From Corynebacterium sp. SCR221107 (GTDB taxonomy: Bacteria; Actinomycetota; Actinomycetes; Mycobacteriales; Mycobacteriaceae): DNA of 64,000 nucleotides. The translations under genes and the position numbers were made by a program. Shown here piece after piece: positions 4,239-55,462 of this stretch. Location: positions 1,736,001 to 1,800,000 of the forward strand of contig NZ_CP115670.1 in assembly GCF_027886475.1 (NCBI RefSeq), in the 5' to 3' direction. Below the pieces are notes generated by a model. The model searched no databases. It saw only the letters and a program-made list of their open reading frames with translations, and was not told where the DNA came from. Numbering within the stretch: the stretch's first letter is position 1; every line of letters begins with the position of its first letter.

Positions 4239-5087
4239 TTACTTGCTTTTACGAACCATGTCTAAAGGAGAAGGTGAGGTTTTTCTCATTGCCTTCCGCG
4301 CCGGTTCGGCTGCTTCCGCGTGCATATCATCCGACGTCTTGTTCAAAGCCTCAGCAGGCTCATGGAATTCCATGCGATTGTCGCCTGGGGTACTAGTCCT
4401 ATTCAACTCAGCACGCCGCGAATCCTCGCCTGCTACCACCGTTTCTTCCACAGCCTCCGCGCCGCCCATCAGTGCAGTTGTCTTGTTTTCCGCATCGCAG
4501 GAGGTCTCCGCATCATTAGGGTTATCAGTGGCATTGCTTCCTTGTTCCCCCACCGTGGACTCGTCACTAGGTGATATTGCTTGCCGACGTTTAAGGTACG
4601 AGGTTCGCCCATCGAGCCAAGACTGCAGAATCTCCACGGCAGCCACCTGGTCGACGATTGAGCGGGAATGCTTCTCTTTTCTTCCTGACATATGCAACGC
4701 CTGGTGGGCGATGACTGTGCTCAGACGCTCATCCGCCATCCTCACGGGGATGGGCCGCCCTAGCTTGCTCAGCCGACGGTTGATGCGAAATGCGATGTCC
4801 TTGGCATGCTTGACACTTGAGGACCCACTGCCGTCCAGGTTACGTGGCAAGCCGACGACCACCTCCACGACATCGTAGGTATCGATAATCTCTAGGAGCC
4901 GATCGATATCTTGGCTGTCGCGGTCTTTGAGACCCGTCGTACGCTTAACCGTTTCCACGGGGCTGGCCAGCATCGCATCACGATCACTGACTGCGACACC
5001 GATTCGCACAGTACCGACATCGACGCCAAGGCGCCGACCTGCGCCGGGATCATCGACTCCTGGGGAGTCTGGAGTTATGCGAGCCAC
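4239..5087 (-). CDS. ruvX: Putative pre-16S rRNA nuclease RuvX/YqgF with extra C-terminal tail
   Basis: This is an RNase H-fold nuclease of the YqgF family, implicated in 16S rRNA 5' maturation. The first 170 residues hold the whole fold: [15 protein letters not shown] (first Asp), [22 protein letters not shown] (Glu) and [14 protein letters not shown] (last Asp). The normal family protein ends about there. Here a further 110 or so polar, acidic residues follow (Ser, Asp, Glu, Ala, Asn rich, ending in MVRKSK) with no recognisable domain. The tail begins right at a copy of the dispersed GCTTnCCGACG repeat (4579-4589), which encodes part of LKRRQAIS. The core assignment is secure; the tail's role is unknown. 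Confidence 0.88.
4579..4589 (+). repeat. Dispersed repeat GCTTnCCGACG, variant copy in ruvX
   Basis: The sequence is GCTTGCCGACG, one change from the core GCTTTCCGACG, in TTGCTTGCCGACGTTTAAGG context. It marks the junction between the conserved RuvX fold and its extra tail. Confidence 0.5.
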
Positions 5088-5337
5088 ACATCGATCCTTT
5101 CAACGTCTTTGGGCAAGTCACCAAGGGCTTTCCACCGCATGAATAGCGGGTCAGGATGCCGCTTCTCAAATTATCAATTTATATGCCGCCTGCGCCACAA
5201 ATGGCAAGGGTCAAGACTTGAATTTGCTTGCCACTAGCTTGAGACCTTTGACCCGAAGGCCCCACTTGTGGCACGGCTCGTCGGTGGTTCTTGGCTTCGC
5301 TTTCTCATCAGTGGTAGCTTGTGACGCCGGCAAGCAC

Positions 5338-5396
5338 AAAACCCGGGTACCGTGGGCAAGCACCCAATCGAAGGGTTCTTGTCCACGGCACCCGGG
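5338..5396 (-). terminator. Intrinsic terminator of alaS
   Basis: A 14-bp stem with one mismatch (CCCGGGTACCGTGG at 5342-5355 with CCACGGCACCCGGG at 5383-5396) encloses a 27-base loop. On the minus strand it is followed by TTTTGTG. It lies 28 bases past the alaS stop. The rest of 5088-5423 holds no gene. Confidence 0.65.
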
Positions 5397-5423
5397 CTAC
5401 GTGATGAAATTCAGCAATCTAAA

Positions 5424-8096
5424 CTAGGCCAGCTTGCCGAGCTCATCGCGAACGGCTGCGAAACCGGCCTGCAGGCCAGCGGCATTGGCACCAGAGCCCT
5501 GCGCCATATCGGGCTTGCCGCCACCGCGGCCGTCGATATATCCACCGAGGGTCTTAACCAAATCACCAGCCTTGACCCCGCGTGCGACAGCAGCCTTGGT
5601 TGCAGCGGCAACGAACGGAACCTTTCCGGAAGCATCCTCGGCGGCCAAAACCACGACACCAGCCTTATCGCCGAAAGCGTTTTTGACATCTTGAGCGATG
5701 GTACGCAAATCGCCGGCCTCGGTGCCCTTGGAAAGGCCTAAGGTAATTACCTCAAAACCGTTGAGCTGCTCGGCCTTGTTGGCCAGTCCTGCGGACTCCG
5801 CCAGCAGCTGTGCCTTGCGCATATCCTCAATGACCTTCTCTGCTTCCTTTAGCTTGTGTGCCAAGGCAGCGATGCGATCCGGAACGTCGGCCGAAGGCGC
5901 CTTCAATGAGGAGGCAACACCTTCCATGAGCGCGCGCTCTTTGGACAGGTAGCGGAAAGAGTCCAAGCCGGAGTAAGCCTCGATGCGGCGGACACCAGAA
6001 CCAACAGAAGACTCACCCAGGATGGCTACGGGGCCGATCTGGCTGGAGTGGGCAACGTGAGTACCACCGCACAGCTCCATGGAGAAGGGGCCGCCGATCT
6101 CCACGACGCGGACAACATTGCCATAGTTTTCTCCGAAAAGGGCCATCGCGCCCATTGCCTTGGCCTCATCGAGGGAGGTCTCGATCGTATTGACCGCCCA
6201 GTCGGTGTCCACGGCCTCGTTGGTGATGGCCTCGATCTGTGCGAGCTGGCCGGGGGTCAAAGACTCGGTGTAGTTGAAGTCGAAGCGTAGGTAGCCGGGC
6301 TTGTTCATCGAACCGGCCTGCACTGCCGTCGGGCCGAGCACCTGGCGCAGGGCTGCGTGAATGAGGTGGGTCGCAGAATGAGCCTGGCGTGCGGCATGGC
6401 GCCATGCATCATCGACGGTGGCACGCACCTCGTCACCGATGGCGAGCCCACCCTTGGCAACGGTAGCCTTGTGTACCCACAACTTCTTGCCAATCTTCTG
6501 AACGTCGTCGACCTTGAGCAGGGTATCGCCCACGGTGATGACACCGCGATCGCCGAGCTGGCCGCCGGCCTCTGCGTATAGCGGAGTGACGTCGAGGACG
6601 ACCTCGACCTGCTGGCCTTCCGAGACCTCCTCGACCTTGGCACCGTCGGCAAGCAAACCGATGACCTTCGAGGTGGTCTCCAGCTCCTCATAACCCGCGA
6701 ACTCGGTCGGGTTATTATCCACCCACTCACGGTAGATCGACAGGTCCGCATGGCCGTGCTTCTTGGCACGGTTGTCGGCCTTGGCGCGGGCACGCTGCTC
6801 CGCCATGAGGGTGTCGAAGCCCTCGGTGTCCACCTCGAGTCCGGCCTCGGCAGCCATTTCGAGCGTGAGGTCGATGGGGAAACCGTAGGTGTCGTGGAGG
6901 GCGAAAGCATCGGCGCCCTCGATGGTGGTCTTGCCGGACGCCTTGACGGCCTGGGCAGCCTCCTCAAACAGGGTCGTGCCCGACTCCAACGTCTTCAGGA
7001 AGGCATTTTCCTCGGTGACTGCCACGCGCAGGATGCGCTCGCGGTTGTCCTCAATCTCCGGGTAGGACGGGGTCATGGTGTCCATGATGGTGTTCATGAA
7101 CTGCTCCATGGTGTGGCCGGTCGCGCCCAAAAGACGTGCGGAGCGAATGATCCGACGAAGCAGGCGGCGCAGGATGTAGCCACGGCCCTCATTGCCCGGG
7201 GTGACACCGTCGAGGATGAGCATCATGCCGGTGCGGGAGTGGTCGGCGATGACACGGAAGCGAATGTCGTCCTCGTGCTTGGTGCCATAGGTCGTGCCGG
7301 TCAACTGCTGCGCAACGTCGATGACGGGGCGCAAAAGGTCGGTCTCATAGACGTTGTCTACACCCTGGAGGATGCAGGCCACGCGCTCGACGCCGAGGCC
7401 GGTGTCGATGTTCTTCTTCGGCAGGGGGCCGAGGATCTCGAAATTATCCTTGCCAATTCCCTCGCCACGCTCGTTTTGCATGAAGACTAGGTTCCAGATC
7501 TCCATGTAACGATTATCGTCGGCGATCGGGCCGCCCTCAGCACCGTATTCCGGGCCGCGGTCGTAATAAATCTCGGAGCAGGGACCGCATGGTCCAGGGA
7601 TGCCCATGGACCAGTAGTTATCCGCCATGCCCAGGCGTTGGATACGCTCGGTGGGGATCCCGATCTCCTTGTGCCAGATGTCGGCGGCCTCATCATCGTC
7701 GAGGTAGACGGTCACCCACAAGCGCTCGGGATCGAGACCATAGCCACCTTCTTCGAGCGACCCCGTCAGCAAAGACCAGGCATGCTTAATCGCGCCTTCC
7801 TTGAAGTACTGGCCGAAAGAGAAGTTGCCGGCCATCTGGAAGAAGGTGTTGTGGCGGGTGGTAATACCCACCTCCTCGATGTCGAGGGTGCGCACACACT
7901 TCTGAATGGAGGTGGCGGTGCCGTTCGGGAAAGGAGGATTCTGCTGACCCAAGAAGTACGGCTTGAAGGGAACCATGCCCGCGTTGACGAACAGGAGGTT
8001 CGGGTCATCCAGGATGAGTGATGCGCTTGGGACCGGTGTGTGGCCAGCCTTGACGAAATGGTTGGTGAAGCGCTCCCGGATCTCATGGGTCTGCAC
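5424..8096 (-). CDS. alaS: Alanyl-tRNA synthetase
   Basis: This class II synthetase charges tRNA-Ala and edits Ser/Gly mischarging. The catalytic core begins [13 protein letters not shown] and includes [20 protein letters not shown], then [14 protein letters not shown]. The editing domain has the zinc ligands HSATH (about residue 573) and ELCGGTHVA (about 675). The C-terminal dimerisation domain ends with [13 protein letters not shown] use the GTG at 8096, with GAGGA about eight bases upstream, because it matches the known N-terminus. Earlier in-frame starts up to 8252 add about 50 non-conserved residues. The resulting 890 residues are the normal length. ruvX is the next gene downstream, separated by a terminator. 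Confidence 0.97.
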
Positions 8097-8264
8097 GGCG
8101 GTATGTCCTCGTTTCTCGACGATCATAGGTCTAACGAGCGTTAACCTTACCTCATACGGTCCATTCCAAGCGCAACACTTCCACCTATCAGGAGCAACAA
8201 CCCAATTAGACCACCTCAACAACTCGGTCGGAGAAAGATAATCGCAGGTCATTGCCGTTGCGTC

Positions 8265-13436: not shown

Positions 13437-14236
13437 GTGCACCAATTCCTTTCGCTGTGCTTTAACGTTAATGGCCGCCCTTCAAGGCGCGGCCAAGATT
13501 ATCCTCAACTGCCCCATACTACCCCGACAACGCAAGAGCGCGAGTCTTAGCCCTCTCAAAGTCGCCTCATGTCAATCGCCCTTGCCCAAGGAACGATTAT
13601 TTCGCTTCAGTACGTCGACCGCTTCTTCCCCCACCCCGCCGCTTCATTCTGAGCTGCCACGACAGACGTCCGAAGCAGCACCTAGTCCCTTTGCATAAAC
13701 GGTAGGCACCGGCCACGTTTCATCAGTTTGAGGGGTAGTAAGTGTTGTCGGCTCCATGATTGCCAGTTTTCGTCGTGTTCCTTTTCACGTGTCCACATGG
13801 TGGGAGGTTTGTGCTTTAATTCCCTTCGTGTCAGCCCTAAGCTGCGCTGGGTCGGTTATGTGTTTCATGCGTGCTGAATGCGTGTAGGCTCCGCTTCTGC
13901 TCGAGACGAACAATTTCCTCCCGCTAGGCACCATCCGATACGGGCTTTTCACTCCCCTTGCGCTTTGCATGGAATGGTTTCTTGCTTTCCGACGCCAAGG
14001 TGCGCGCGCCCTACGTTTTGTTCATCGGCCACGAGAAACATCTTTGGTGACTTTCATTAAGCCCTATCGGTGGACGCTTGGCAGTGACGTTTGGCTCGTT
14101 GTTGGCCTGCCCAAGCCTTCGACGAACTTCCCATTACGCATTGCCGAGGCGAACTTGGGTTATGAGCCATGACTGAATATCTTCCCTAGCAGCCTTTTAT
14201 CCGCACCGAGGGCGGTTTTTATGGCATTATCAGCTC
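13437..14236 (+). other. Gene-free stretch upstream of ypfJ-like gene
   Basis: These 800 bases separate aspS (minus) from the zinc metallopeptidase (plus). I see no credible coding frame on either strand. They hold one exact copy of the dispersed repeat (13984-13994) and presumably the promoters of both genes. Confidence 0.5.
13984..13994 (+). repeat. Dispersed repeat GCTTTCCGACG, exact copy
   Basis: The context TTGCTTTCCGACGCCAAGGT shares 18 bases (GCTTTCCGACGCCAAGGT) with the reverse complement of the copy at 52851-52861, so homology extends past the core. Confidence 0.6.
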
Positions 14237-15400: not shown

Positions 15401-18400
15401 TTAGTCCTGTTTCTCCGTTAGGTGTGCCGTGAGGTGTTCGGCAGTCTGGTCAAGCGGTGCCGGGGTTTGTTGCTGTGCCTGGCTAGGGCGTGCATCTGGA
15501 TCTTCGTCCAGTACGACATCGCCGCCGCCTTCGGGCTGGGTATCGTCGGCAAGCCCCAAGCGGGCACGTTCGGCCGCGATGATTTCGCGAGCCAAAGCGG
15601 TCTCGGAAACGTCGACGGCATCGGCCACATCGGCGGCATCGGATTCTCTTGCGAACGCATCGAAGGCCTTGCGTTTGTGGGCAAGTATTTCCAACAAGCG
15701 CTCGTCGACTGTTTCATCGCCGACGATTCGGTGAACGTGGACTACCTGGGTCTGCCCCATTCGATGCGCGCGGGCAATCGCCTGGTCTTCAATCGTAGGC
15801 TTGACCTGAACTTCGGCGATAATAACCACCGACGCCTTTTGGATATTAAGCCCCACGCCACCGGCACCGATCTGCGCCAGTAACACGGGACCGTCCGTTC
15901 CAAGGGCATCCACCAACTGCTGGCGACGAACCGGCGGAACGTCGCCGCTGATAATACCGACGCACTGAGGGCCGAATTCTTGTGCGAGGCGGTCCAACAC
16001 CCGCCGGAAATAGGAAAAGATCAGCACGTTTCGGCCATCTGCGATCGCTTCGGCCACCAGCTCGCGCATACGTTCAACCTTCGCCGAACCTGTACCCGGC
16101 GCGAGATTGAGCGCTTGGCGTAGCTGCATCCAATTACCCGAGGCCACGGCCTCTTGGTAGAGCTGTTGGTCCTGGGCACTGGGTTCAACCCATTCGATGG
16201 TTTCTACTTTCTCCGGCAATTCGTCAAGTACGTCGACCTGGTTGCGCCGTAGATAGTACGGCGCAACGGTGGTGCGAAAGCTGGCTGCGGTGCCGGGGTT
16301 AGCCGGATCCACGAATCCTGGGTGGAGGTAGTTGATGAGGTTGGCAAATTCCGACACCCTGTTTTCCATCGGCGTGCCCGACATCAAGATGGCGCCTTTT
16401 GACTCCTGAATAATTTTCATGGCCGCTTGGGATCGCAGTGCGGCTGGGTTTTTGATCATGTGTGCTTCGTCGATAACCACCAGGTTTACAGGAGCAAGTG
16501 GCTGTTGCCGGATGCCTTCATAGGTCATAATGAGCACGCCACCACTGGAAGTCCAAGCGTCGATGCTGGCTTGGCGGATGTCACCATGACCTATGAAAAT
16601 CTCAAGATCGCTCAACGTTGTAAGCTCGCGTCGCCAATTGACAATGAGGCTTGCGGGGACGACGACGAGGATGCGGGCTCGTTTCGGCACCACCGCCAGG
16701 CGCTGTAGCTCATCTGCATTGTCATGATGATGAGCTTCGTTATCGTGACTATCCGGGACTTCTCGATTTGGCTGGTTTGCTTCCGTGCCCGCCGCTTGTC
16801 GAGGCTTGGCGGGGTCCTCCAGGCGGGAGGTCTCTTGCTTTGACTGATTGGTATTCCCAGCTTGTTGCTTGCGCAGTTGTTCGAGGTGCTCGGCGAAGGC
16901 TTCTGGGTCATAGTTCGCTGCGGTATGCGCGGCCACCGCGATAGCTTGAACCGTTTTGCCAAGACCCATCTCGTCGCCAAGGATGACCTTTTGTTGCACG
17001 ACCGCGAACTTCGCACCGAAGGATTGATAACCACGAAGGTAGAGGTCTTTCAAGTGGCTGTCGTCAAGATGGAGGGAGCGGATCGCCTCGATGGTGTGTT
17101 CGCTTAATCCCTCCAGTGTCGTACCTACTTCATTACCCGAGTCAAGCAAGACGTTGAGCAGCGTTTGATAATGCGCGGGCCGCGACAAATAGTCCTGCCA
17201 CGCATCAGGCGTGGAAGTTGGCATGGGACCGGGCAGGAAGGATTGTGGGGAGGCTTGCGCCCAGGAAATATCCTCGATGAACTGATCGAACATCGCCGAA
17301 CCTTCCTTGACCAAGACAAAGGGCTGGCCGATGGTAGCGAGAGTAGGCGGGAATCCGGTGAAGTACTCAAGCAGCCGATCCCGGCGCGCGGCTTGTTCCT
17401 CGCTGAGCGTATTTGTCTTTTCAAAAGTCTGGAGGACCTCGGTCGCCGCCTGAGCGGCCGGTAATTTTTCTTGGCCAAGGTTGCGATCGGGCTGCGCTTG
17501 GGCCTCGGTGAGTAGCGTCTGGGCGGCGGCTTTCATGCGACGAGCCGTTTGTTCGCCGATACCGGGAATGCGCATCAATGTGGCCTCGGGGCGGTCCAGG
17601 ATGTCCGCGACTGTGCGGATGCCGTGTTCGTCGAGCCCTTTGAATCGGAGGCGCTCGTTAGTGACGTCTTTGAGCGCTTCGAGGTCCATTCCTTCTAGGA
17701 GCCTGCGCGCGCGTACCGCAGCCAGCTGGGATAGATAGGAGCGCAGTTGTCTTTGGAGGTTGTGAGGCGAGTGGGGGTCGGCGTCGATGATGCGGGCAGT
17801 TTCACGCGTGGGCAGAATGTAGGCGCGGTCAAGCGTCTCAAGCTGCGCCCCCGGCATATCCAGCGTTGCGGTGAGCTCGTTGCGGGCGGCGTTGATGTAA
17901 GCATCGGGCAAACCGTGGATTCCTGGGGTAAGGAAAACCCCACGGGATTGGGCAGTATTGGCTTTAGTTGCGCGTTCTATGATGCCGCGGGTGGTCGTGG
18001 TTAGGTGATCGAAGTCTGCTCCGGTGATAATCCCGAGCATTTCCTCAGCTGCTTTTTCGCCTAGGCGTACGCTGCTGTTGCCCGATAGTGACCATCCAAA
18101 GCGCGTGAGCAAGCCTACATCGGCCTTTTTGGCGAGTGCTAAGAGATCCGGAATAGGTTGCGTGGATTGGATGAACTTGTCTAATACATCGCAGGTATCT
18201 CGTACCGTGTCCGCAAATTCGGCACGAACATAAAGACCGCTTGGCCAGGAAACCAGCGCAGGATCGGTGAGCACGAATCGATCGCCTGGCTTGCCGAATT
18301 GCACGGTAGGGCCCGTCCTTACCGCTTGTGGCTCCGCGGTAAGAAGGGTCTTGAGGTCGAATGCCTGACCGCGCATCTCCACCATACGGGTGCCCGTCGC

Positions 18401-18439
18401 GCACGCTTCGCGCAGCAACACTTTGTCCATAGCCTCCAT
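15401..18439 (-). CDS. SNF2-family DEAD/DEAH helicase with helix-hairpin-helix region
   Basis: This is a large Swi2/Snf2-type DNA translocase. The N-terminal half has no catalytic motif but includes a helix-hairpin-helix (LMRIPGIGEQTARRMKAAA). The helicase core then shows Walker A GDEMGLGKTVQAIA, VVVPASLIVNW, DEAH in VVIDEAHMIKNP, SGTPMENR, and motif VI QAIARAHRMGQTQVVHV. About 85 polar, low-complexity residues rich in Gln, Asn, His and Asp are inserted between Walker A and motif Ia. I prefer the ATG at 18439 (MEAMDKVLLREA, 1012 residues); the frame stays open to 18835, but that stretch is basic and unlike a domain. The role is probably DNA repair or chromosome maintenance. It is monocistronic here. 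Confidence 0.85.
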   Translation of the reverse strand: MEAMDKVLLREACATGTRMVEMRGQAFDLKTLLTAEPQAVRTGPTVQFGKPGDRFVLTDPALVSWPSGLYVRAEFADTVRDTCDVLDKFIQSTQPIPDLLALAKKADVGLLTRFGWSLSGNSSVRLGEKAAEEMLGIITGADFDHLTTTTRGIIERATKANTAQSRGVFLTPGIHGLPDAYINAARNELTATLDMPGAQLETLDRAYILPTRETARIIDADPHSPHNLQRQLRSYLSQLAAVRARRLLEGMDLEALKDVTNERLRFKGLDEHGIRTVADILDRPEATLMRIPGIGEQTARRMKAAAQTLLTEAQAQPDRNLGQEKLPAAQAATEVLQTFEKTNTLSEEQAARRDRLLEYFTGFPPTLATIGQPFVLVKEGSAMFDQFIEDISWAQASPQSFLPGPMPTSTPDAWQDYLSRPAHYQTLLNVLLDSGNEVGTTLEGLSEHTIEAIRSLHLDDSHLKDLYLRGYQSFGAKFAVVQQKVILGDEMGLGKTVQAIAVAAHTAANYDPEAFAEHLEQLRKQQAGNTNQSKQETSRLEDPAKPRQAAGTEANQPNREVPDSHDNEAHHHDNADELQRLAVVPKRARILVVVPASLIVNWRRELTTLSDLEIFIGHGDIRQASIDAWTSSGGVLIMTYEGIRQQPLAPVNLVVIDEAHMIKNPAALRSQAAMKIIQESKGAILMSGTPMENRVSEFANLINYLHPGFVDPANPGTAASFRTTVAPYYLRRNQVDVLDELPEKVETIEWVEPSAQDQQLYQEAVASGNWMQLRQALNLAPGTGSAKVERMRELVAEAIADGRNVLIFSYFRRVLDRLAQEFGPQCVGIISGDVPPVRRQQLVDALGTDGPVLLAQIGAGGVGLNIQKASVVIIAEVQVKPTIEDQAIARAHRMGQTQVVHVHRIVGDETVDERLLEILAHKRKAFDAFARESDAADVADAVDVSETALAREIIAAERARLGLADDTQPEGGGDVVLDEDPDARPSQAQQQTPAPLDQTAEHLTAHLTEKQD

Positions 18440-19108
18440 TATGAAGCGGATGAGAAAAAGGGCGCTATCTGCCCCACCGTGCAGGCGAAGGTTCTTGTAA
18501 ACCGCGAATGCTTGGGGTGGTCTGTCCCCATGTTGTCTTTTTGTTTTCGTTCGTGGCAATGCACGCAGTTGGTCAGTTCGTTGCTTTTCGACGTCCACGG
18601 TGGGCAAACAGAATTTCGTTGGTCCAGCATCATCGACCAACTGAGCCTGCCGCAGGTCGACTTTCAGGCGTTTGGTAGTTTTCCCGGTCGGCTTGATGAG
18701 TGAAGAAAGAACTGGCTCCCTCATCGACTCCAGTCGGGGTTTTGTAGTCGGTGTTTTCTTTCTTTTCCCATCATGATTTCCGACACAAAGTATCGGGATG
18801 TGAGCACAGCGCCAAGCCTTCAAGTTAGAAGCCACGCAGCAATTATCCTTGCCGCCTTATCCCTAAACTTGGAATTAATGCCTACACAAAACTCCATATA
18901 AACTTCTAAGATTAATGGCCTTATTTATTCCTTTTAATGAAACTACGTGAGATGATGGGCACCGTAGCCTTGTACATTTCTCAGGAAATGCATTGCCCTC
19001 TCCAGTTCCCTAGCTTTCGGTGCCAGTGATCTTCTCTCATCGGCAATCCACCGGCTTTACTAGGTGCAAAGTTGAAAGCACGAAGAGTCAAGAAAAGAAG
19101 GTTCCCCG
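18440..19108 (+). other. Intergenic region between divergent helicase and TetR genes
   Basis: Bases 18840-19000 are clearly A/T-rich (for example around TTCTAAGATTAATGGCC), fitting divergent promoters for the helicase and the TetR gene. A longer form of the helicase would cover 18440-18835. I see no other gene. Confidence 0.4.
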
Positions 19109-20058: not shown

Positions 20059-21771
20059 TTGACGATTAGCACCCTTGATCTGTTCAGTATCGGTGTGGGC
20101 CCATCCTCATCCCACACGGTAGGTCCCATGCGCGCCGCTTACGATTTCGCCGAGACGCATCATGTGGAAAGCGGCAATCACGTCCATATCCTGCTTCGAG
20201 GCTCGCTGGCAGCCACGGGTATCGGTCACGGCACCGACCGTGCGGCAATTCTCGGATTGGCTGGCTTTGAACCGGAAAGCACAACAGCCAATGACGGGAT
20301 AGCCTTCGGCCACACCGTGCCGGTACGAGGCACCATTAAGGGACCGCGCCGAAGTATTAGCTATTCGATCGAGTTTGATACGGATCCGCATCCCTTTCAT
20401 CCAAACAGCTTGAGCTTCCAGTGCTTCCAATCCGAGCTATGGTTCGATTTCGGTGCACCGCGCAAATCATTGGCTGCCGGGCAATCACAATCCGACCCTG
20501 CAGAGTCCGATCCGAGCAGTCAAACGTCGGAAAGCATGCTTGGGCAACCCAATCCACACGCAACGGTGAAGGAAACGGTGCCAACGACGATTCCGGGTCC
20601 GCAATCCTTAGCAGTGCCTATTCCACAGCAATCGGAGCTTTCCGACGCTGCCAAAGCCGACTCCCACACCGACCCTTCGCCCGCCCAGCATCGCGCCGGA
20701 AAAGGTTTCGTTGACAAAGAGAATGGAAATGGCGCGGTCACTGACGTCTGCACGTATTTCTCCGTCGGCGGAGGATTCGTCTTAAGCGAAGACGAGCTTC
20801 TCACCCGTGCGGCCGATGGCAAGCAATTGGGCTCCGGCGCCTCCACCCGAGGGCGTGAAGGCGAGCTGCCCTACCCTTTTAGCACCGCCGACGAGCTGTT
20901 AGCCCAATGCACCCAGCATTCGCTGAGTATTGCCGAAATCATGGCAGCCAACGAGCTGAGCCTACACGGCGATATGGACAAGGTTAATAATCATCTCGAC
21001 CGAGTGTGGGAAGTCATGCAGGCCTGCATCGACCGCGGTCTGCGCACCCCCGGAGTACTACCCGGTGGTCTGGAGGTTCACCGCCGCGCGCCGCAGCTGT
21101 ACGCACACCTTAAAGACACAGTCGGCGCACAACGGTCAGATCCCCTTTCAGCGATGGAGTGGATCAACCTCTACGCACTGGCGGTCAACGAGGAAAACGC
21201 TGCTGGCGGACAGGTTGTAACCGCACCGACCAACGGCGCCGCCGGTATCGTTCCCGCCGTCCTCGCCTACGCGCATTCCTTCCTTTACGGTCTAGGCCCG
21301 CACGCCCACCGGGAATTCCTCCTCACAGCTGGAGCTGTAGGCATCATTATTAAGGAAAATGCCTCGATTTCCGGTGCCGAAGTTGGCTGTCAGGGAGAGG
21401 TGGGATCCGCTTCAGCCATGGCCGCTGCCGGTTTGTGCCACCTACTTGGCGGGCTTCCCACTCAAGTCGAGCATGCTGCCGAAGTTGCGCTGGAACACAA
21501 TTTGGGCCTCACCTGCGACCCCGTCGGTGGGCTAGTGCAAATTCCCTGCATCGAACGCAACGCTATCGGCGCGGTCAAGTCCATTAACGCCGCCCGCCTG
21601 GCACTGCTGAGCACCGGAAACCATCGCGTGACTCTCGATGATGCGGTCAAGACGATGGCATCGACAGGACGAGATATGCTCTCCAAATACAAGGAAACCG
21701 CAACCGGAGGACTCGCGGTGCAGCTTGGCACCCCACGCGTTGGGCTCCCGGTAAACATCACCGAATGCTAA
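20059..21771 (+). CDS. sdaA: L-serine dehydratase (iron-sulfur) with a ~100-residue insertion
   Basis: This enzyme deaminates L-serine to pyruvate with a [4Fe-4S] cluster. It begins [20 protein letters not shown], the family N-terminus. The TTG at 20059 has AGGAG eight bases upstream, so I reject the earlier ATGs. Three cluster cysteines are present: C444 ([11 protein letters not shown]), C486 (TCDPVGG) and C497 (IPCIERNA). [11 protein letters not shown] and [10 protein letters not shown] are also typical. The length is 570 against about 450 usual. The excess lies at about residues 128-228, between [10 protein letters not shown] and [10 protein letters not shown], and is a Ser/Pro/Gln/Ala-rich stretch with no domain. 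It contains two inverted copies of the dispersed repeat. The frame and active site are intact, so the enzyme may still work. Confidence 0.92.
20525..20535 (-). repeat. Dispersed repeat GCTTTCCGACG, exact copy in sdaA insertion
   Basis: It reads CGTCGGAAAGC on the plus strand and encodes part of QTSESM. It lies 101 bases from, and is inverted relative to, the copy at 20637-20647. Confidence 0.6.
20637..20647 (+). repeat. Dispersed repeat GCTTTCCGACG, exact copy in sdaA insertion
   Basis: It encodes part of SELSDAA. Together with 20525-20535 it forms an inverted pair lying wholly inside the extra segment of the gene. Confidence 0.6.
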
Positions 21772-24449: not shown

Positions 24450-24912
24450 ATTTAGTCTTTCTTCCAGACATTTCTGCTAGGTCAATTCACGTGCACGAAA
24501 TAAGGCGGGCGCCACGTCGTGTTCGGAGTCGCACCTTTGCGGGCAAGCAATGAAAGCGCCGGACTCCACGACGAACGCTACCCCGTTATCACCTGTCATC
24601 ATGAACGGAACTTGGAGACAATGGTGCGCTGTAGACGTCGGCAAGCGCAAAGAAGGCACAGTTGTGAATTTTTTTGGGATCTACGATCTGGCACGAAGCG
24701 TGACATTGACGGCTCCCGTCACGACCGACCCCAGATCCACCCGACATCAAACTCAACACCCGAGCGGCACATGAGCATACTCTGCCATCCACCAAGCTGT
24801 GGTCATTCCGAGCTACAAGCAGCGGCATTTACACCCGCCCCACCGACAGCCGGCAATGTTGTACAAGCGGGCAATCGGCCATCTCATGCGCCAAGTATAT
24901 GGAATGACTTTT
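24450..24912 (-). other. Gene-free region between tpx and the metallo-hydrolase
   Basis: I find no credible coding frame in these 463 bases. They contain a variant copy of the dispersed repeat at 24636-24646 and must hold the promoter of the metallo-hydrolase-hisS operon. Confidence 0.4.
24636..24646 (-). repeat. Dispersed repeat GCTTnCCGACG, variant copy
   Basis: It reads CGTCGGCAAGC on the plus strand, one change from the core, in GACGTCGGCAAGCGCAAAG context, 187 bases upstream of the metallo-hydrolase start. Confidence 0.45.
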
Positions 24913-31062: not shown

Positions 31063-32694
31063 TTAGGAATCTTGATCCGTAGTGGGTGGAGTGAATTTCC
31101 ACTTGTTCATATTCCAACCAATTCCTGAAGCGTCGGTGTTGGACACCTCGTTTTCAACTCCACGGTGAGTAATGAATACTCTTGGCTGCGAAGCCAGCGG
31201 GATGGTGGATACCTCATCCCAAGAGGCAGCTTCGGCCGCGCGTATCGCCTGAAGATCTGTGCTTGTCTGGGCAATTGAAGCGAACTCCGACATCGGATCA
31301 ACTGCTTGGATAAATGCGTCGGCGGTACCCGCCGTGTAGATCACTTCGCCCCACTGTCCGTAGCTGAGCTTCGAAAGATTGCCCAAGGAACCGGCTTCGG
31401 ACGAGACGTCCACGACGGTAATTCCCGCAGGTTGACATGACTCATTCATCGCCTGAACCATTGCGGCCAAGCGATCATTGGGACCTGCATAGCCAACCCG
31501 GATAGTAGAGCCAGTAATCAATTGAGCAGCCTCGATGTTCACAGCCAAATGAGGGTCGGTGATGTCACGCATTTGGCTGGCTGCCGGGTCACTTGCCCGA
31601 ACTGTCCGCGAAGCTACGGGATCGACCGGAACGCCCGAGTACTCCGAGGAAACCGATGCGATCTTGGCTTGGTCGACGCATGCTGCGAAGGCCGCACGGG
31701 CGGATTTATCGGCGAATACGTCAGCGTTGCTGAGGAACAACTGCTCTGTTAACACACCCGCCTGTGAACTAATTTCGAACTGATTGTCGGTGGCGTTGCG
31801 GTCAAACCAGTCATTTCCATTCACGCTCGTGGCTTCCACCACTTGGATCGAGTTCCCGGCCGCCAAGGCAGCAAGATCCGCACCTTTCGGCCATACGACG
31901 ATCTTTTCCAGCTCAGCGGGTTCACCAACATAATTCTCATTTCGGGCCAGCACTACTTCGCCGGAATCGCCCACCTTTTCAATCTTGTAGGGCCCAGTCG
32001 ACACTTGTAGCAGAGGGTCAAAATTGTCGAGGCTAAAGCCGTTCTTCCACAGGTCTGCAATGGGGGCGATCGCCTCAGCGTCGCGCGATTGGAGCGCCGC
32101 GTTGAAGTCTTCCAGTGTCATTCCTAGCTTGTCGGCGATTGCATGCGCCGGCATTAAGACACCAGGGCCGAAAAGCTGACGCCAGCGCGCACCGAAACCT
32201 TCCTTGAAGACGACGGTTGCCTGCTTGGAGCCCGGGGAGCACTCGACACGATCCACTTGCTCCATCAAAGGAAGATGCGAATCGAAGAGATCCGGCATCG
32301 CTCCGGCTGTAAACGCTAGCAGGTAAGAATCACAAGTTACTTGTTTTCCATCTGAGTATTTCGCATCGTTGGAAATGTTATAAATGACGCGCTGACTCGT
32401 GCCCGGGAGCACTTGGGTGTTCACGAAGTCCGAGTTGGGAATGAGCTGGCCCTTTGGTCCAGGCACGTGCGCCGATGGATACAAACGTCCAGCGAGCGCC
32501 TGGGCATTCACGCTCACGCCCAGGTTTGTACCCGCGTTCGTCGTCAGCAGGGGTTCATCAAGTGCATAACCGAAATAGATTTCCTTTACTTCTTCGGTGT
32601 TGCTATCCGCACCGCAGGCACTGAGCCCCAGCGCGATAGCACAAATGGTAGCCACTACACTTCTTCGTGACGCGGTAGCAAGGGAAGAGAACAT
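31063..32694 (-). CDS. Peptide/nickel-type ABC transporter solute-binding lipoprotein (dciAE-like)
   Basis: This is a family 5 extracellular solute-binding protein. A signal peptide with lipobox LGLSAC precedes a mature domain with ALAGRLYPSAHVPG and YNISNDAKYSDGKQVTC, the usual entry region of oligopeptide-binding proteins. I start at the ATG at 32694 (MFSSLATASRRSVV), which places the signal peptide at the N-terminus. In-frame codons up to 32772 add a stretch unlike a leader. No permease or ATPase genes are adjacent, so it is an orphan binding protein, as is known for dciAE at this locus in C. glutamicum. Its ligand, or a role in lipoprotein biology instead of uptake, is unknown. Confidence 0.82.
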   Translation of the reverse strand: MFSSLATASRRSVVATICAIALGLSACGADSNTEEVKEIYFGYALDEPLLTTNAGTNLGVSVNAQALAGRLYPSAHVPGPKGQLIPNSDFVNTQVLPGTSQRVIYNISNDAKYSDGKQVTCDSYLLAFTAGAMPDLFDSHLPLMEQVDRVECSPGSKQATVVFKEGFGARWRQLFGPGVLMPAHAIADKLGMTLEDFNAALQSRDAEAIAPIADLWKNGFSLDNFDPLLQVSTGPYKIEKVGDSGEVVLARNENYVGEPAELEKIVVWPKGADLAALAAGNSIQVVEATSVNGNDWFDRNATDNQFEISSQAGVLTEQLFLSNADVFADKSARAAFAACVDQAKIASVSSEYSGVPVDPVASRTVRASDPAASQMRDITDPHLAVNIEAAQLITGSTIRVGYAGPNDRLAAMVQAMNESCQPAGITVVDVSSEAGSLGNLSKLSYGQWGEVIYTAGTADAFIQAVDPMSEFASIAQTSTDLQAIRAAEAASWDEVSTIPLASQPRVFITHRGVENEVSNTDASGIGWNMNKWKFTPPTTDQDS

Positions 32695-33110: not shown

Positions 33111-33121
33111 CGTCGGAAAGC
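33111..33121 (-). repeat. Dispersed repeat GCTTTCCGACG, exact copy
   Basis: It reads CGTCGGAAAGC on the plus strand, in TTTCGGCGTCGGAAAGCGAA context, in the non-coding stretch upstream of the solute-binding lipoprotein. Confidence 0.55.
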
Positions 33122-33396: not shown

Positions 33397-34515
33397 TCAG
33401 CGGTTGGGACGCCACGAGGCGCCTGTCGACTTCAGTGCGGTGGTATCAACCTTGCGAGTACGTTCGTCAGAGATCTCTTCGAGTGCTTCTTCGAGATCCT
33501 CCTCGGCCTCGACCTTCGCCTCACCGGCGCGGCGACGTTCGACCGCAGCATTATGCGCCTTGGTTTCTTTCGTTCGGTTTTTCAGGCTTACCAGGAATGG
33601 GGTGGCCAGGAATACCGAGGAGAATGTGCCCTCGATAACGCCAATGAGCTGGACGAGCGCGAGGTCTTTCAGCGTACCGACGCCCATCAGCCAAACGGCA
33701 ACAACCATCAGTGACACAATCGGCAACGCGGAGATCACGGTGGTGGAAATCGAACGCATGACCGTCTGATTGATAGCTAGGTTGGCATGTTCGCCGTACG
33801 TCCGCGATGTGCTTCCCAAGTAACCGGCGGTATTTTCACGAACCTTATCAAACACGATGACGGTGTCATACAAGGAGAAGGCAAGCACAGTCAGCAGACC
33901 AATGACGGTGGCCGGGGTGACTTCAAAGCCAACCAAGGCGTAAAAGCCGGCGATGACAATGAGGTCAACGAGCAACGCCGCGATCGCAGCGATGGCCATT
34001 TCGCGCTGGAAGCGGATGGTGATGTAAACGAAAACGGCACCGAGGAATACTAGCATGGAGATCAACATGCGGGAGGTGATGGTCGACCCCCAGGATTCAG
34101 ACACCGTTGAATCGCCGATCGCGTCCGGGGTTTCTTGGCCAGCGCCATCTTTCGGCTTGTACTCCGCGTATAAAGCCGAGCGTGCGCTGTCAATTTGCTC
34201 CTGGCTAAGGCGCTCAGAATTGATCTCCAGCACACGAGAGTCTCCCGAGCCGACAATTTGCACTGTCTCAGGGGTGACACCGGTTGCTTCGGTGAAGGTT
34301 TGTTCCACCTGCGAAGTCTCAAGATTCGCAGCTGGCATATTCATTTTGGTGCCACCGACAAAGTCAATGCCCAAGCTAAAGCCGCGAATCACGATAGCCA
34401 GAAGACAAACAACGATGATCCCGCCGGCAATCATGTACCACTTGCGGCGATGATTGACGAAGTCGAGGCCACCTTCACCTGTGTAGAGCTTGTTTAGCAC
34501 TCCATTTGAGCTCAT
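33397..34515 (-). CDS. secF: Protein translocase subunit SecF
   Basis: This is an integral membrane partner of SecD that uses the proton gradient to help pull preproteins through SecYEG. The first membrane helix is followed by the family motif GIDFVGGTKMNM, a periplasmic-side loop, and five more helices including ATVIGLLTVLAFSLYDTVIVFD. The C-terminal 50 residues are charged and cytoplasmic. The 372-residue length is normal for Actinobacteria. The start lies six bases after the secD stop. Confidence 0.96.
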   Translation of the reverse strand: MSSNGVLNKLYTGEGGLDFVNHRRKWYMIAGGIIVVCLLAIVIRGFSLGIDFVGGTKMNMPAANLETSQVEQTFTEATGVTPETVQIVGSGDSRVLEINSERLSQEQIDSARSALYAEYKPKDGAGQETPDAIGDSTVSESWGSTITSRMLISMLVFLGAVFVYITIRFQREMAIAAIAALLVDLIVIAGFYALVGFEVTPATVIGLLTVLAFSLYDTVIVFDKVRENTAGYLGSTSRTYGEHANLAINQTVMRSISTTVISALPIVSLMVVAVWLMGVGTLKDLALVQLIGVIEGTFSSVFLATPFLVSLKNRTKETKAHNAAVERRRAGEAKVEAEEDLEEALEEISDERTRKVDTTALKSTGASWRPNR

Positions 34516-40943: not shown

Positions 40944-41826
40944 CCTAAACCTTTCTATCAAACTTCGTGAAAACCCAACGTGGCTGGCTAAAGCCTTGCT
41001 GTGCAAAAGCACGTGCCTTTCGCCACGTGTCCTCGTTGCGCGAGCAGAAGTGGCGTGCCCACATCACGTTGCCTTAACGCCTCTGTGATCCATGCCCGAC
41101 CTAGTGAGGTTTTCTTTTCTCACGATCGACGTAGGCTGCATCCGCGTGTTGCCTACCGGTTCATATTCGCCTACAGACTCATGCCCCTCATGCACGCATC
41201 AAGGTCCAAAATCGGTAGCGGTTTGCGGCGGCAACTGCCCATTTCTACCAATCGTTACATCGACAGAAATGCGACGCTGCAGTACAACGTGGCCATTATA
41301 CTGCATTGTTCCCGGAAACCTCCGAACGACCACCGCTGCTCTACTCGCGGATTTCATTCCTACCGATTCCTTCCGAGCCACCAGCGTCCACCGCACTAAC
41401 TGCGCCTTGAATGCCTACCCGGCAAAGTGCGCAGGTGGCGGGGACAGCTAAAGCGATGCTGTGGCGAGGATAGCAACTGAAGCTTCCCTGCTTCCGTCAC
41501 ACAGAAGCTGCGGACGCTGCCAGCGTCGCCAAGCATGCGAAATAAACGGAAATTTCTTTGACAACGCGGAGACTGTGATTGCGACAAACGGCTTTCCTAC
41601 CGATGTTCGCCACCCCATGTTCGCCAGCCCAGGTGGCTTTTGACATCGTCGCCTTCTTAGCCCCTACAAGGTGGGTGGTACCCCAGCGCGTTGAGCGTGC
41701 CGACGGGCGAAGCTCGTCGTTGTTCCGGTCACAGAGCCAGTGAGGACAGATCACGCACGAGGCGTAGCATGGATCACCACCATTTCGGACGGGATGCCGA
41801 AAAATCGCTGATGGTGCTCCACATTC
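40944..41826. other. Long gene-free region between yebC and tesB
   Basis: These 883 bases lie between two minus-strand genes. I see only short, unconvincing frames on both strands and no strong hairpin. They may be a decayed gene or a lineage-specific insertion, but no fragment is recognisable to me. Confidence 0.4.
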
Positions 41827-42681: not shown

Positions 42682-43294
42682 TTGTCATTCACTCCGCGCT
42701 GATTGGAAAGTCCCCTTTTGCTTACGTCACCGCAGTGCTGCCTCGATCCCCTTGTTTTGAGCATAAGACTCTCACGAGGACACGAGACTCTTGCATGTCA
42801 GCGCTGGGGCCGCGACCGCGTGGCCCAACGAAGACAGGGGGCAAAAGAGACACTCTGAAACTAATTCATTAACCGTGCTTCTCAACCTTACCGCCGGTTA
42901 TAGGTTTTCGCTGCAACCTGCCCATAAAATCTTCGGCCTACGTAAATAATGCCCGCATCCCCAGCTTCACCGGCACGCATTCAAGTGGCAGGTAGCATCG
43001 CTTTTCTTGCTTTCCGACGACCATAGGACCCGACTCTTCCAGCCGATGCAACAACGACTGGCACGAAAAAGATATTGCACAGACACCGTTGCATTGCAGT
43101 GCTTGACCCAATTGAAAAACCAACGTGAAACCCCACTAAAGCGAACACTTCGGTGTGACTATGCCAAGCACCAGCCGCCGGGGAATGCCGAGAGCAGCAG
43201 ATAGCGAATTAATAGGGGTCACGGATCACCTTCGGACTCATTGCCGCACACCCTTGGCCTGTCGTGATAGCGTCTTTTTAAACCCGCCCCCTCA
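42682..43294. other. Intergenic region between divergent tesB and glycosyltransferase genes
   Basis: These 613 bases lie between outward-facing genes. They hold an exact copy of the dispersed repeat (43009-43019). I see no credible gene. Confidence 0.4.
43009..43019 (+). repeat. Dispersed repeat GCTTTCCGACG, exact copy
   Basis: The context TTTTCTTGCTTTCCGACGAC matches the copy at 52234 over TTGCTTTCCGACGA. It lies 286 bases upstream of the GT-C gene; another copy lies just after that gene. Confidence 0.6.
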
Positions 43295-44658: not shown

Positions 44659-44669
44659 CGTCGGAAAGC
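44659..44669 (-). repeat. Dispersed repeat GCTTTCCGACG, exact copy
   Basis: It reads CGTCGGAAAGC on the plus strand in GTGGACGTCGGAAAGCAATG context, only nine bases after the stop codon of the GT-C gene. Confidence 0.6.
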
Positions 44670-49092: not shown

Positions 49093-49119
49093 TCATAGCT
49101 TCAAGCAGCCTTTAAAGTC

Positions 49120-51403: not shown

Positions 51404-52717
51404 TTACTCAGCCTTCAGTAGTGAGCCACCCCAATATCCTTCGGATGAATGAGTGCCTGGCATGATGGCGTAGATCGCAGAACCGATGTGCGTGATCCAT
51501 TCGTTGAGGCGGTCGGAGGCATCCAGCCGCTGTTGGATAGGGATGAACTGCTTGCGCGGATCTTTTTGATAGCAACAAAATACCAATCCCGCGTTGCTAA
51601 GCTGCTCGCTTCCCGGCTCCGGGGGCAGGTTGTAGTTATAGGAACGCCGTAGAATTCGATCTTCCTTATTCTCATCGTGAGCCGTGGCCAGAGCCATGTG
51701 GGAATTGACATCAATGACGGGAATACCGTAACTATCAAGCGCGTCGTAGTCCGGATCATCAAACTCATCACTGCCAGTCAAGGGGGCACCATTGTCTAGC
51801 TTGCGGCCCATGACGTTTTCGCGTGAGGTTCGATCGAGCATTTCCCAGGTATCGAGGTTCATGTTTATACGGCGTACGACGAGACAAGAGCCTCCCCGCA
51901 ACCATTCTGGAGAGTCATCCTTGTCATCAATCCACACCTGGGCAGAAAACTGCTCATCGTTTCGAGGGTTGACGGTGCCATCGATTTGGCCGAAGAGGTT
52001 ACGCGGAGTTGCCCCTTCCTCACGCACGCCAGGCGCATTAAGGAAACCTTGCTGGAACCATTTCGTAGACACATACGTCGCGGCCGACCGTGTCATATGC
52101 CGAGCAACGAACGCATTTTGCAAGGGGTCGTCGCTGCATATCTGCAGGACTATATCGCTTTGCCCCCATTGTTCCTCTAGCTTGTCCTTGCTAAAAACCG
52201 GGAGTGGTTCCAGCCAGCTTGGTCTTTGATCTTGCTTTCCGACGATGTCGAAAAAGCGCGGCCCTACTCCGAGTGTGACGGTGAGGTTAGCTGGAAGTAC
52301 GCTCAGCTCTGGCTCTAGGGAACCTGGTGGATTCTTCCCCTGGGTGAGACTGCGTGCATCTTCCGTCCACAACCTCATGAGACGCTCGACCGCCGCGAGA
52401 TCAGCACCCGCCCGCAGATCGAACCCGATCAATGTAAGAAAACCCGGAGCCGGGGTAGCAATACCAGCCTGGTGCTCCCCATCAAATTCGACCGTCTTCA
52501 ACCCTGCCGCCACAGCAGTATCTGTTGCTGCGCCGCTTGCTTCGGTTGCAGCATCATCTTCTGAGGCACACGCGCCAAGCGCGCCAGCGCCGAGGAAGGC
52601 TGCCCCGCCGAGCACAAAGTTGCGCCGAGAAAGCTTCCATTTGTTGCCAAGGCCATTCACCGAACTCGGCTTCAATTCGCCTGGATCTGCCGGTGGTTGA
52701 AACTGATCACCCGTCAC
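51404..52717 (-). CDS. Tat-exported DyP-type heme peroxidase lipoprotein
   Basis: This is a dye-decolorizing peroxidase of the EfeB-like group. The leader has a twin-arginine motif (KLSRRNFVLGG) followed by a lipobox (LGACASE), so the folded protein is exported by Tat and anchored as a lipoprotein. The catalytic Asp lies in the family motif GQIDGTVNPRN. The likely proximal His is in VNSHMALATAH, followed by RILRRSYNYN. I prefer the GTG at 52717, with GGAG nine bases upstream; ATGs at 52732 and 52726 are poorly spaced. It follows the copper-protein genes. One exact dispersed repeat (52234-52244) is within the coding sequence. Confidence 0.9.
   Translation of the reverse strand: MTGDQFQPPADPGELKPSSVNGLGNKWKLSRRNFVLGGAAFLGAGALGACASEDDAATEASGAATDTAVAAGLKTVEFDGEHQAGIATPAPGFLTLIGFDLRAGADLAAVERLMRLWTEDARSLTQGKNPPGSLEPELSVLPANLTVTLGVGPRFFDIVGKQDQRPSWLEPLPVFSKDKLEEQWGQSDIVLQICSDDPLQNAFVARHMTRSAATYVSTKWFQQGFLNAPGVREEGATPRNLFGQIDGTVNPRNDEQFSAQVWIDDKDDSPEWLRGGSCLVVRRINMNLDTWEMLDRTSRENVMGRKLDNGAPLTGSDEFDDPDYDALDSYGIPVIDVNSHMALATAHDENKEDRILRRSYNYNLPPEPGSEQLSNAGLVFCCYQKDPRKQFIPIQQRLDASDRLNEWITHIGSAIYAIMPGTHSSEGYWGGSLLKAE
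52234..52244 (+). repeat. Dispersed repeat GCTTTCCGACG inside the DyP gene
   Basis: On the coding (minus) strand it encodes part of FDIVGKQDQ. It matches the copy at 43009 over 14 bases (TTGCTTTCCGACGA). It does not disturb the reading frame. Confidence 0.45.
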
Positions 52718-52850
52718 GAAAATCATCTCCATCCTTGCCCTTTATTCGGGCCTTTTATCACCATGTGACAGCACCGTTGTGTCAATGTTGCTGCCATTGA
52801 CGTCTAACCGAGAAGTTCGGACCACACCCGCATCAAGAGGACAACCTTGG

Positions 52851-52861
52851 CGTCGGAAAGC
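52851..52861 (-). repeat. Dispersed repeat GCTTTCCGACG, exact copy
   Basis: It reads ACCTTGGCGTCGGAAAGC on the plus strand, the exact reverse complement of 18 bases at 13984. It lies about 135 bases upstream of the DyP start. Confidence 0.6.
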
Positions 52862-52887
52862 ACGACGCTAAACAACTATGAATACAG

Positions 52888-53190: not shown

Positions 53191-53238
53191 CTGGCATCGC
53201 AGCGGCATATTCTGCTGGATACCCCACCAAGTGGGCTC

Positions 53239-53859: not shown

Positions 53860-54111
53860 AACAAACTCCTTGATATGAAATACGATTGAATACGTTGGGA
53901 AGAAAATGAAATGCGACTTCCATGGAAGTGGCGTAGCTTTTCAGCATCCGCTTCGGTTTTAGCTCATACTGCTGTGCGAATCAGCCATTCCGAGAAAAGG
54001 TGCGCATACAACGGGGCAAAGTCTCGACCTGGTGGGCATTCCCAAAGCCACGCAGCATGTAAGCGTAACGCCAGCTGAAGGCCTGGGCAGAAACATGTGA
54101 ATTCACTGGAA

Positions 54112-54732
54112 TCAGCCCTGCTTCTTACGGCTGACAGCCACCACGATGGCACCGATGACTACCACCGCTGCAATCACTCCACCCCACAAGCCGATCTTTG
54201 AGCTCGACTCCTCTGCATCCGCTTGCACAACAGATGCGGCAGATTCCGTGCTCGATTGTTCCGCAGACACCGAGGACGATCCTTCCGAGGCAGTGCCTGA
54301 CGTGGCACCACCACTTCCTTCGACGGTAAACGAAATCTTGCCGCGCGTGGCGTGACCGTCGGACGAAGTGATTTGGAAACCAACGTTGTATTGGCCATCC
54401 CCAGCATGAACACCACTGGGCACCGCCAACGACAGCTGCGTACCGCTGAGGGTTGGTTCCCCAGAGAACAGCACCTCACCATCTTGGTTAGTCACCGCCA
54501 TGGTGTTGAAACCCTCCTTGGGATAAGAGGAAAAGTCGAGGGTGATCGTCTCTGGAAAAACAGCCAGCACCTCACCGTCGGTGGGCGAGCCGCCAACAAC
54601 AGCGTCGTGAGCGAATGCCTGCGGCTCGGCGCCAAGCCCCACACATCCAAGACCGAGCGTGCCCGCTGCCACAGTGGCTGCGGCTAGGACGCGTGCTGGG
54701 CGCAGGTTGTGTGGGCGCATCTGGTGATCCAT
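54112..54732 (-). CDS. CopC-type periplasmic copper-binding protein, membrane-anchored
   Basis: The protein has a signal peptide ending QAFA, so the mature form begins with His (HDAVVGGSPTDGEV), as required for the Cu(II) site of CopC. The other ligands fit SSDGHATRG (Asp and His). A Ser/Ala/Glu-rich linker and one C-terminal membrane helix (GLWGGVIAAVVVIGAIVVAV) with a basic end anchor it to the membrane. I start at the ATG at 54732, with GAGGAG just upstream; an ATG at 54759 is possible. It is 206 residues. With the PCu(A)C lipoprotein it forms a copper handling pair. No CopD fusion is present. Confidence 0.9.
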   Translation of the reverse strand: MDHQMRPHNLRPARVLAAATVAAGTLGLGCVGLGAEPQAFAHDAVVGGSPTDGEVLAVFPETITLDFSSYPKEGFNTMAVTNQDGEVLFSGEPTLSGTQLSLAVPSGVHAGDGQYNVGFQITSSDGHATRGKISFTVEGSGGATSGTASEGSSSVSAEQSSTESAASVVQADAEESSSKIGLWGGVIAAVVVIGAIVVAVSRKKQG

Positions 54733-55451
54733 CGTTCTCCTCGTGTTCTTTGAAACCATACTTTACAGCGAGATGTTATAACCAACTTTCGTTGACCATG
54801 ACATCGCACCAAAAGTTGCTTCGCCAAACAACATGGGCAGCGGTTGCCGCTCTCCCGGTTTGCATTTCTTCCCCATCACGCGGGGACCGACAGTTGAATA
54901 TAACCCCTGTGAAAGGGTCAAGGATTAGTCGCAGCGGCAACGGAGAAAGTTCCCTCCATTTCGTTTGCACTACCCCCGCCACCGTGCCTGCTCACTCGTC
55001 CCGAAGCCACAATCTGAAGTCATTGGTGTCGAATGTTGCCAAAACAGCTAAATGGAAATTTAACGCAACAACCACCCGAAAGCTTTCATCACATCCAGCC
55101 ACCACACCACCGAGCGCCGACATTCGTACCGCTTTGCTTGAGCAAAAACCCAGCCAATAAATGAACAAGTTCCAATACCCCCGAAGGCAGGGAAATACCC
55201 GGTACCGGTGACACTTTTTAGGCAATGCTACCCACAATCGGCACAAGGATTCATGCACGAAATTTGTCGAGATTCTCGTCCCATTTGGCTTCTTATTCAC
55301 CGCGCCGTACCGGGCACCCAGTGCGAGGTCACCAGCTTCCCCCACTTCTTATGGCGGGGTTGTCGAAGCCAGCTCTCACTTCAATGACAACCACCGTCTC
55401 AGCCCGCGAGAAACCCGATCCTTCTACCCAAGGACCTCATGCCCCATCATT

Positions 55452-55462
55452 GCTTCCCGACG
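55452..55462 (+). repeat. Dispersed repeat GCTTnCCGACG, variant copy
   Basis: GCTTCCCGACG, one change from the core, in CATTGCTTCCCGACGTTTCC context. Confidence 0.45.

Follow-up and report, generated by a model that had tools for sequence, protein, structure and literature searches.

A dispersed motif in Corynebacterium, GCTT-NN-CGACG, that is probably a DNA uptake sequence with several dialects

The 64,000-nucleotide stretch of the Corynebacterium sp. SCR221107 chromosome analysed here (contig NZ_CP115670.1, positions 1,736,001 to 1,800,000; the window in the following) carries dispersed copies of a short motif, GCTT-NN-CGACG, which consists of nine fixed bases and a free central dinucleotide. 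A first-pass annotation had described the 11-mer GCTTTCCGACG, which is one form of this motif; the repeat is real and far more numerous than had been reported. The features by which uptake sequences are recognized are found together, namely abundance, occurrence in both orientations, a sharp core at the DNA level, dialects, scarcity in mobile DNA and uptake genes in the host, and the motif probably belongs to this kind. It is likely that GCTT-NN-CGACG is a DNA uptake sequence (DUS), i.e. a watermark of self-DNA kept by biased natural transformation.

In the window, the 11-bp pattern, written GCTTNNCGACG (GCTTNNCGATG being another spelling), is present in 15 copies against 0.72 expected. The eight exact copies of GCTTTCCGACG listed by the first-pass annotation are all found at their positions and on their strands (0.07 expected; eight reached in 0 of 100 shuffles), as are the one-base variants at 4579, 24636(-) and 55452; the list had missed the copies at 6644-, 15544-, 18583+ and 41524-, and its two-base variant at 30122 (GCTAGCCGACG) is not a member of the motif, because it alters a fixed base. 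The whole genome contains 1,432 copies compared with 82 of the reversed pattern, an excess of approximately 17-fold that corresponds to a density of about one copy per 2.1 kb, with the strands balanced (726 forward and 706 reverse; 41 and 41 for the reversed control). The exact 11-mer itself, for which a count near chance would have spoken against the repeat, reaches 351 copies in the genome, the reversed control having 6.

The core is sharp in a 464-kb sample of this genome, made up of the window and 20 stretches of 20 kb taken across the contig: the motif has 229 copies, whereas no variant with one fixed base changed has more than 42. The commonest 11-mers of the sample are GCTTGCCGACG (86) and GCTTTCCGACG (63). 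The central dinucleotide is mostly GC or TC in this genome, and AT, or GT and GA, prevail in four other genomes sampled at 100 kb. The similarity that was thought to extend into the flanks is real but weak: among 370 copies in 844 kb, at least five T are found in the eight preceding bases of 67 and in the eight following bases of none, and the 3′ side has a weak, CC..C.GG-like preference.

By gene calls from a simple custom script, which make the intergenic and genic fractions approximate, 86 of the 229 copies are intergenic and 143 lie within genes, i.e. the density per base is 2.6-fold higher between genes; the earlier statement that most copies are intergenic thus holds for the window (nine of 15) but not for the larger sample. 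Within genes, copies are mostly found in one frame, xxG-CTT-NNC-GAC-Gxx (100 of 143, on the coding strand), and the possibility that the motif is a common codon string was rejected on the codon context. CTT encodes the leucine preceding xxC-GAC in 100 of 144 cases if both flanking bases are G, but in 18 of the 167 other cases; it accounts for 14% of the leucine codons in the sample. As leucine codon choice follows the G context, it depends on bases outside the reading triplets, which points to selection at the DNA level: motif copies dictate codon choice within genes.

Placement is neutral with respect to both replication and transcription. With the leading and lagging strands assigned from the GC skew, whose sign differs between the 1.50-Mb and 1.65-Mb stretches, and from the first genes of the contig, which by eye resemble recF and gyrB, the copies divide 114:115 when summed over the sampled stretches. 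Intergenic copies between tandem genes are oriented with and against the genes in a ratio of 22:24, intergenic copies occur in divergent, convergent and tandem gaps alike, and no excess of close inverted pairs was found. The operator of a regulator was rejected, given the lack of promoter-related placement and the genic position of 143 of the 229 copies; the global regulator site proposed by the first-pass annotation is unlikely on the same genic share, the absence of an orientation preference and the presence of some 1,400 copies. Chi sites are over-represented short self-markers of bacterial chromosomes, usually strand-biased, and a Chi-like recombination signal for a RecBCD- or AddAB-type nuclease would share with GCTT-NN-CGACG its over-representation, its scarcity in mobile DNA and its variability among species (both described below). 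However, no polarity was found that would suit Chi or another strand-polar signal, the nine fixed bases exceed the known length of Chi, the motif is enriched between genes, and its dialects change fast, by one base between close species, so that a Chi-like role appears improbable.

The scarcity of the motif in mobile DNA was observed in one island and three plasmids. The longest motif gap in a contiguous 380 kb of the genome extends over 54,134 bp, with 0 copies against 25.5 expected (G000:C1:746-800 kb; L190, L036, L191, L192), and its genes encode a TraG/TraD-type coupling protein (with its closest plasmid matches in Corynebacterium), a resolvase, integrase-core transposases, an N6-methylase, an M23/SLT peptidase and a cutinase-domain protein; the region is apparently an integrated conjugative element. 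Conjugation genes are carried by plasmids of C. kefirresidentii and C. striatum, in which 50 kb contain one and two copies, respectively, compared with approximately 14 expected from one chromosomal locus per species; in a plasmid of C. mustelae, counted on its own, 39.9 kb contain none. An intracellular label by which a defence or plasmid-exclusion system tells self from non-self would also be scarce in a conjugative island and on plasmids, but recent arrival of the mobile DNA accounts for this equally well, and such a label is considered very improbable. A further motif-free gap of 13 kb (G000:C1:883-896 kb) contains few called genes and possibly an rRNA operon; a two-gene, insertion-sequence-like element within it recurs near 1,001 kb.

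Across 201 Corynebacterium genomes, counts of the CGACG spelling fall into two groups separated by an empty gap from 135 to 279: 139 genomes have 280-1,964 copies and 62 have 8-134. In 20.7 kb of C. halotolerans, an environmental species that bears the motif, 12 copies were counted. A second spelling, GCTT-NN-CGATG, was found by word counts in 100-kb samples of genomes low in CGACG (G144, G053 and G111). It exceeds 600 copies in 11 of the 201 genomes, 10 of which have only 26-97 CGACG copies; G143 is mixed (1,337 CGATG and 352 CGACG). In three genomes CGATG is weak (159-213 copies), and the other 187 have 12-159. A third spelling, GCTT-NN-TGACG, is present at a single locus of C. ulceribovis in nine copies in 20.9 kb against 0.3 expected. 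In the 201 genomes this spelling, with base 7 changed, reaches 4-77 copies and never more than some four times the count of the reversed pattern (37 versus 39 in SCR221107), and can therefore serve as a one-base negative control.

Neither CGACG nor CGATG occurs in number in 49 of the 201 genomes, and a search for a further dialect in eight motif-free ones (G152, G171, G133, G062, G014, G010, G194 and G030; 40-107 kb each) revealed none comparable: the best spaced word had a z of 9.0 and the best 10-mer a z of 10.1. The corresponding values were 21.6-36.8 for three large samples that carry the motif and 9.4 for the small one from C. ulceribovis. Outside the genus, the CGACG spelling, the only one counted there, is not conspicuous in any of 140 genomes from 30 other genera of the family, where it never exceeds about 2.6-fold the count of the reversed pattern. 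Other over-represented words were met in the course of these counts: motif-free G133 (L254-L256, L178, L082) has palindromic, GCACGTGCAT-like 10-mers, eight in 80 kb against 0.1 expected and possibly an operator, and TTTGGGTGCG-like 10-mers are over-represented beside the motif in G008 (L208-L212; 13 copies in 100 kb).

In a tree of 64 taxa, built from three proteins of named loci, motif states change at least 10 times, these states being read from about 20 kb per species so that low-density species may be misassigned. MSK130, ACRPS, KPL1814 and C. macginleyi together form a CGATG group, which has the CGACG group of C. tuberculostearicum as its sister; the CGATG spelling of C. phoceense is separate from it. 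Single orthologous sites can be followed through such changes. At L120:7914, C. tuberculostearicum and six C-type relatives have GCTTACCGACG, MSK130, ACRPS, C. macginleyi and C. phoceense have GCTTACCGATG, and KPL1814 has GCTAACCGATG; the site is missing in six more distant C-type species. At L120:18106, GCTTGCCGACG is replaced by GCTTGCCGATG in three CGATG strains. Other sites at the orthologous loci compared are absent from relatives via substitutions that are mostly gap-free, so that sites arise and change by point substitution rather than by insertion of a unit. Remnants of a REP/MITE-like mobile element (repetitive extragenic palindrome or miniature inverted-repeat transposable element), another candidate of the first-pass annotation, would also be dispersed in many copies and in both orientations. 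Yet the flanks share no homology past their weak preferences, the orthologous sites come and go mostly without gaps, and leucine codon choice reveals a DNA-level constraint within genes; this candidate was already largely refuted and is hardly tenable. Of the three candidates of that annotation, the one that found support is the DNA-uptake or chromosome-organising signal.

The machinery by which such a signal could be read is widespread in the genus: comEC was found in 200 of the 201 genomes, dprA in 80 of the 80 tried and the Tad ATPase family above cut-off in 195 of 201, and SCR221107 itself has comEA, comEC, dprA and a Tad cluster. Among 39 fetched loci, comEC was matched in 39 and comEA in 37. 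In 21 Tad loci, to which CGACG, CGATG and motif-free genomes contributed seven each and in which genes were named from family resemblance, a TadZ-TadA-TadB-TadC cluster was read together with genes for a DUF4244-type pilin and TadE-like genes. At the threshold used, G171 and G174 lacked a match to a TadE-like gene, and G006 and G014 lacked one to an Rv3654c-like gene, in neither case with any pattern relative to the motif, and the Tad pilins of G004 (CGACG) and G006 (CGATG) are much alike. Loss of comEC, dprA or Tad as the cause of the motif-free state was rejected, no such loss having been found in the genomes searched. The presence of the machinery in motif-free genomes as well means that it permits biased uptake, but does not discriminate in its favour.

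In this framework, the 11-bp site, which spans one helical turn, would be bound and read through its nine bases by a surface DNA receptor of the transformation machinery (Tad-type pilus, ComEA and ComEC). Tagged fragments would enter preferentially and then recombine, and repeated uptake would spread tagged alleles and hold about one tag per 2.1 kb. A shift in receptor specificity would lead to the tags of a genome being rewritten, giving rise to the CGACG, CGATG and TGACG dialects, and loss of selectivity or of competence would let the tags decay to chance. From the genomes we infer that the site is read in uptake, that uptake bias maintains the motif and which kind of protein reads it. For the genus as a whole, it seems fairly likely that Corynebacterium has an uptake sequence whose core is bipartite and which has three or more dialects, repeatedly switched or lost. 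It would have arisen in the Actinomycetota independently of those in Neisseriaceae and Pasteurellaceae and be read by a Tad-pilus/ComEA or other receptor; this would apply to most of the sampled species of these mycolate-enveloped, functionally diderm bacteria.

Residues that might betray such a receptor were sought in ComEA and ComEC, where a scan for CGATG-specific columns returned seven in ComEA and 17 in ComEC, uncorrected. In the helix-hairpin-helix (HhH) domain of ComEA, a serine after the first hairpin, predicted beforehand as a CGATG marker, failed in both readable new strong CGATG genomes, G143 and G053, and was rejected; it also occurs in the CGACG genomes G009, G036 and G029, and G138 gave no HhH match in this test. 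A valine in the same hairpin, likewise predicted beforehand, held in all three predicted genomes and is present in two of 11 readable low-CGATG genomes. The valine and serine pair is found in 10 of 12 CGATG-dominant genomes, in eight of eight with raised CGATG (a cut of 120 copies, chosen after the data had been seen) and in 0 of the 53 remaining genomes that bear the motif and whose domain could be read, a count that omits G089, G043, G166 and G058 (no readable domain) and into which G138, G171 and G200 were not entered. As the carriers belong to one clade, the pair may reflect ancestry alone. Long versus short ComEC reading frames, noted among the matches listed, were not retained as a correlate of the motif, the long ones resembling N-terminal extensions when 24 loci were inspected by eye. 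In G112, G114 and G001 the match to the comEC family is divided in two, perhaps through a frameshift or an assembly error, or because the match itself is split.

Several of these results, and some others, weigh against biased uptake. The valine and serine of the ComEA HhH domain name no receptor, the latter having failed and the former being confounded by ancestry, and the genes for comEC, dprA and the Tad cluster are found in motif-free genomes too. Moreover, comEA was not found beside comEC in G089 (L287; 1,692 copies; search limited to the locus), is split between two frames in G043 (L062; 840 copies), through a frameshift or a sequencing error, and is truncated in G138 (L324; 625 CGATG copies); among these three, another comEA elsewhere in the genome was looked for in G138. 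Some CGACG species also have 120-159 CGATG copies, and the CGATG form at L120:18106 is found in the CGACG species C. kefirresidentii (L118) as well. In Neisseria, close pairs of DUS sites are in excess, whereas here 15 pairs within 100 bp compare with 15.9 expected. Finally, natural transformation of Corynebacterium is not reported among the matches listed in a search of open-licence PMC text. With regard to the comEA region itself, in L324 of G138 (approximately 1,450-1,660) the similarity to ComEA ends after residue 58 and that to ComEC starts from residue 119 about 40 bases on, as if the beginning of comEC had been deleted together with most of comEA, and in motif-free G171 (L080) all that can be recognized of comEA is a C-terminal stretch of 18 residues.

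Motif-bearing genomes with a broken or unseen comEA would be easier to understand if the sites were bound by an abundant chromosomal protein (nucleoid-associated, chromosome-organising or globally regulatory) and selected to be spread. A sharp nine-base site found across the chromosome and enriched between genes fits a DNA-binding protein, and acquired DNA would lack its sites too. However, the sites have no orientation preference, and at least 10 switches or losses on the 64-taxon tree, each at hundreds to about 1,000 sites, are hard to envisage without a driving process: selection alone would presumably have to rewrite hundreds of sites at every dialect change. The 49 genomes that have neither spelling in number, with no comparable motif in the eight that were sampled, also argue against such a protein, and it is regarded as unlikely. 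Biased uptake, for its part, would cover the density of the motif, its sharp core, its neutrality to strands and genes, its tolerance within genes where the code permits, its scarcity in mobile DNA and the one-base changes of dialect, and among the explanations considered it accounts for the most by a single process. The copies in the window are collected in table 1.

Table 1. Positions, strands and surroundings of the 15 copies of GCTT-NN-CGACG in the window.
Copy	Position	Strand	Location
GCTTGCCGACG	4579..4589	+	within predicted gene 4239-5087(-)
GCTTGCCGACG	6644..6654	-	within predicted gene 5424-8126(-)
GCTTTCCGACG	13984..13994	+	intergenic, between aspS-type tRNA synthetase gene (-) and zinc-metallopeptidase gene (+)
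GCTTGCCGACG	15544..15554	-	within predicted gene 15401-18439(-)
GCTTTTCGACG	18583..18593	+	intergenic by gene calls, yet within longer open frame 15401-18835(-)
GCTTTCCGACG	20525..20535	-	within serine dehydratase gene 20059-21771(+)
GCTTTCCGACG	20637..20647	+	within serine dehydratase gene 20059-21771(+)
GCTTGCCGACG	24636..24646	-	intergenic
GCTTTCCGACG	33111..33121	-	intergenic, downstream of SecD/SecF-type gene 33397-34515(-) and upstream of gene 31063-32655(-)
GCTTGGCGACG	41524..41534	-	intergenic
GCTTTCCGACG	43009..43019	+	intergenic
GCTTTCCGACG	44659..44669	-	intergenic, 8 bases beyond gene end at 44650
GCTTTCCGACG	52234..52244	+	within DyP-type peroxidase gene 51404-52732(-)
GCTTTCCGACG	52851..52861	-	intergenic
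GCTTCCCGACG	55452..55462	+	intergenic

To our knowledge, uptake sequences come only from two proteobacterial families. Over-represented short words are also found elsewhere, e.g. HIP1 of cyanobacteria, which is palindromic, hugely over-represented and patchy within its clade; the Corynebacterium motif is similarly over-represented and patchy, but it is asymmetric and its dialects are largely exclusive. In excerpts of the respective papers, the DUS of Neisseriaceae is described as a short repeated tag with dialects that differ between species (PMC3630211), conjugative elements of Neisseria as having been found through an atypical DUS distribution (PMC7371117) and the minor pilin ComP as the DUS receptor (PMC6370729). 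GCTT-NN-CGACG resembles the Neisseriaceae DUS in being a short tag in high copy number, in having dialects of different species and in making conjugative elements stand out, uptake being deduced here from sequence; it differs in its unrelated sequence and phylum, in the free dinucleotide inside its core and in the lack of an excess of close pairs. The uptake signal sequence (USS) of Pasteurellaceae, with a different sequence and in a different phylum, is again a short tag for uptake that naturally competent species carry repeatedly in their genomes; its receptor is likewise unproven according to the part of PMC12616744 consulted. Within the actinobacteria, Micrococcus luteus transforms by means of comEA/comEC and Flp/Tad pili, as stated in an excerpt of PMC6370729. 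The same kinds of competence genes are present in Corynebacterium. We know of no uptake sequence in M. luteus, and neither this motif nor an uptake sequence in Corynebacterium is reported among the matches listed in open-licence PMC text.

If uptake is confirmed, uptake tags would be new for this bacterial group, and a third, unrelated case, densely sampled and with several dialect changes, would make it possible to test why uptake sequences arise and how receptor and tag co-evolve. Motif deserts would then provide a quick detector of acquired islands. If biased uptake is indeed what maintains it, the motif would also predict which Corynebacterium species exchange DNA with each other, and would hint at routes for the laboratory transformation of harmless members of the genus.

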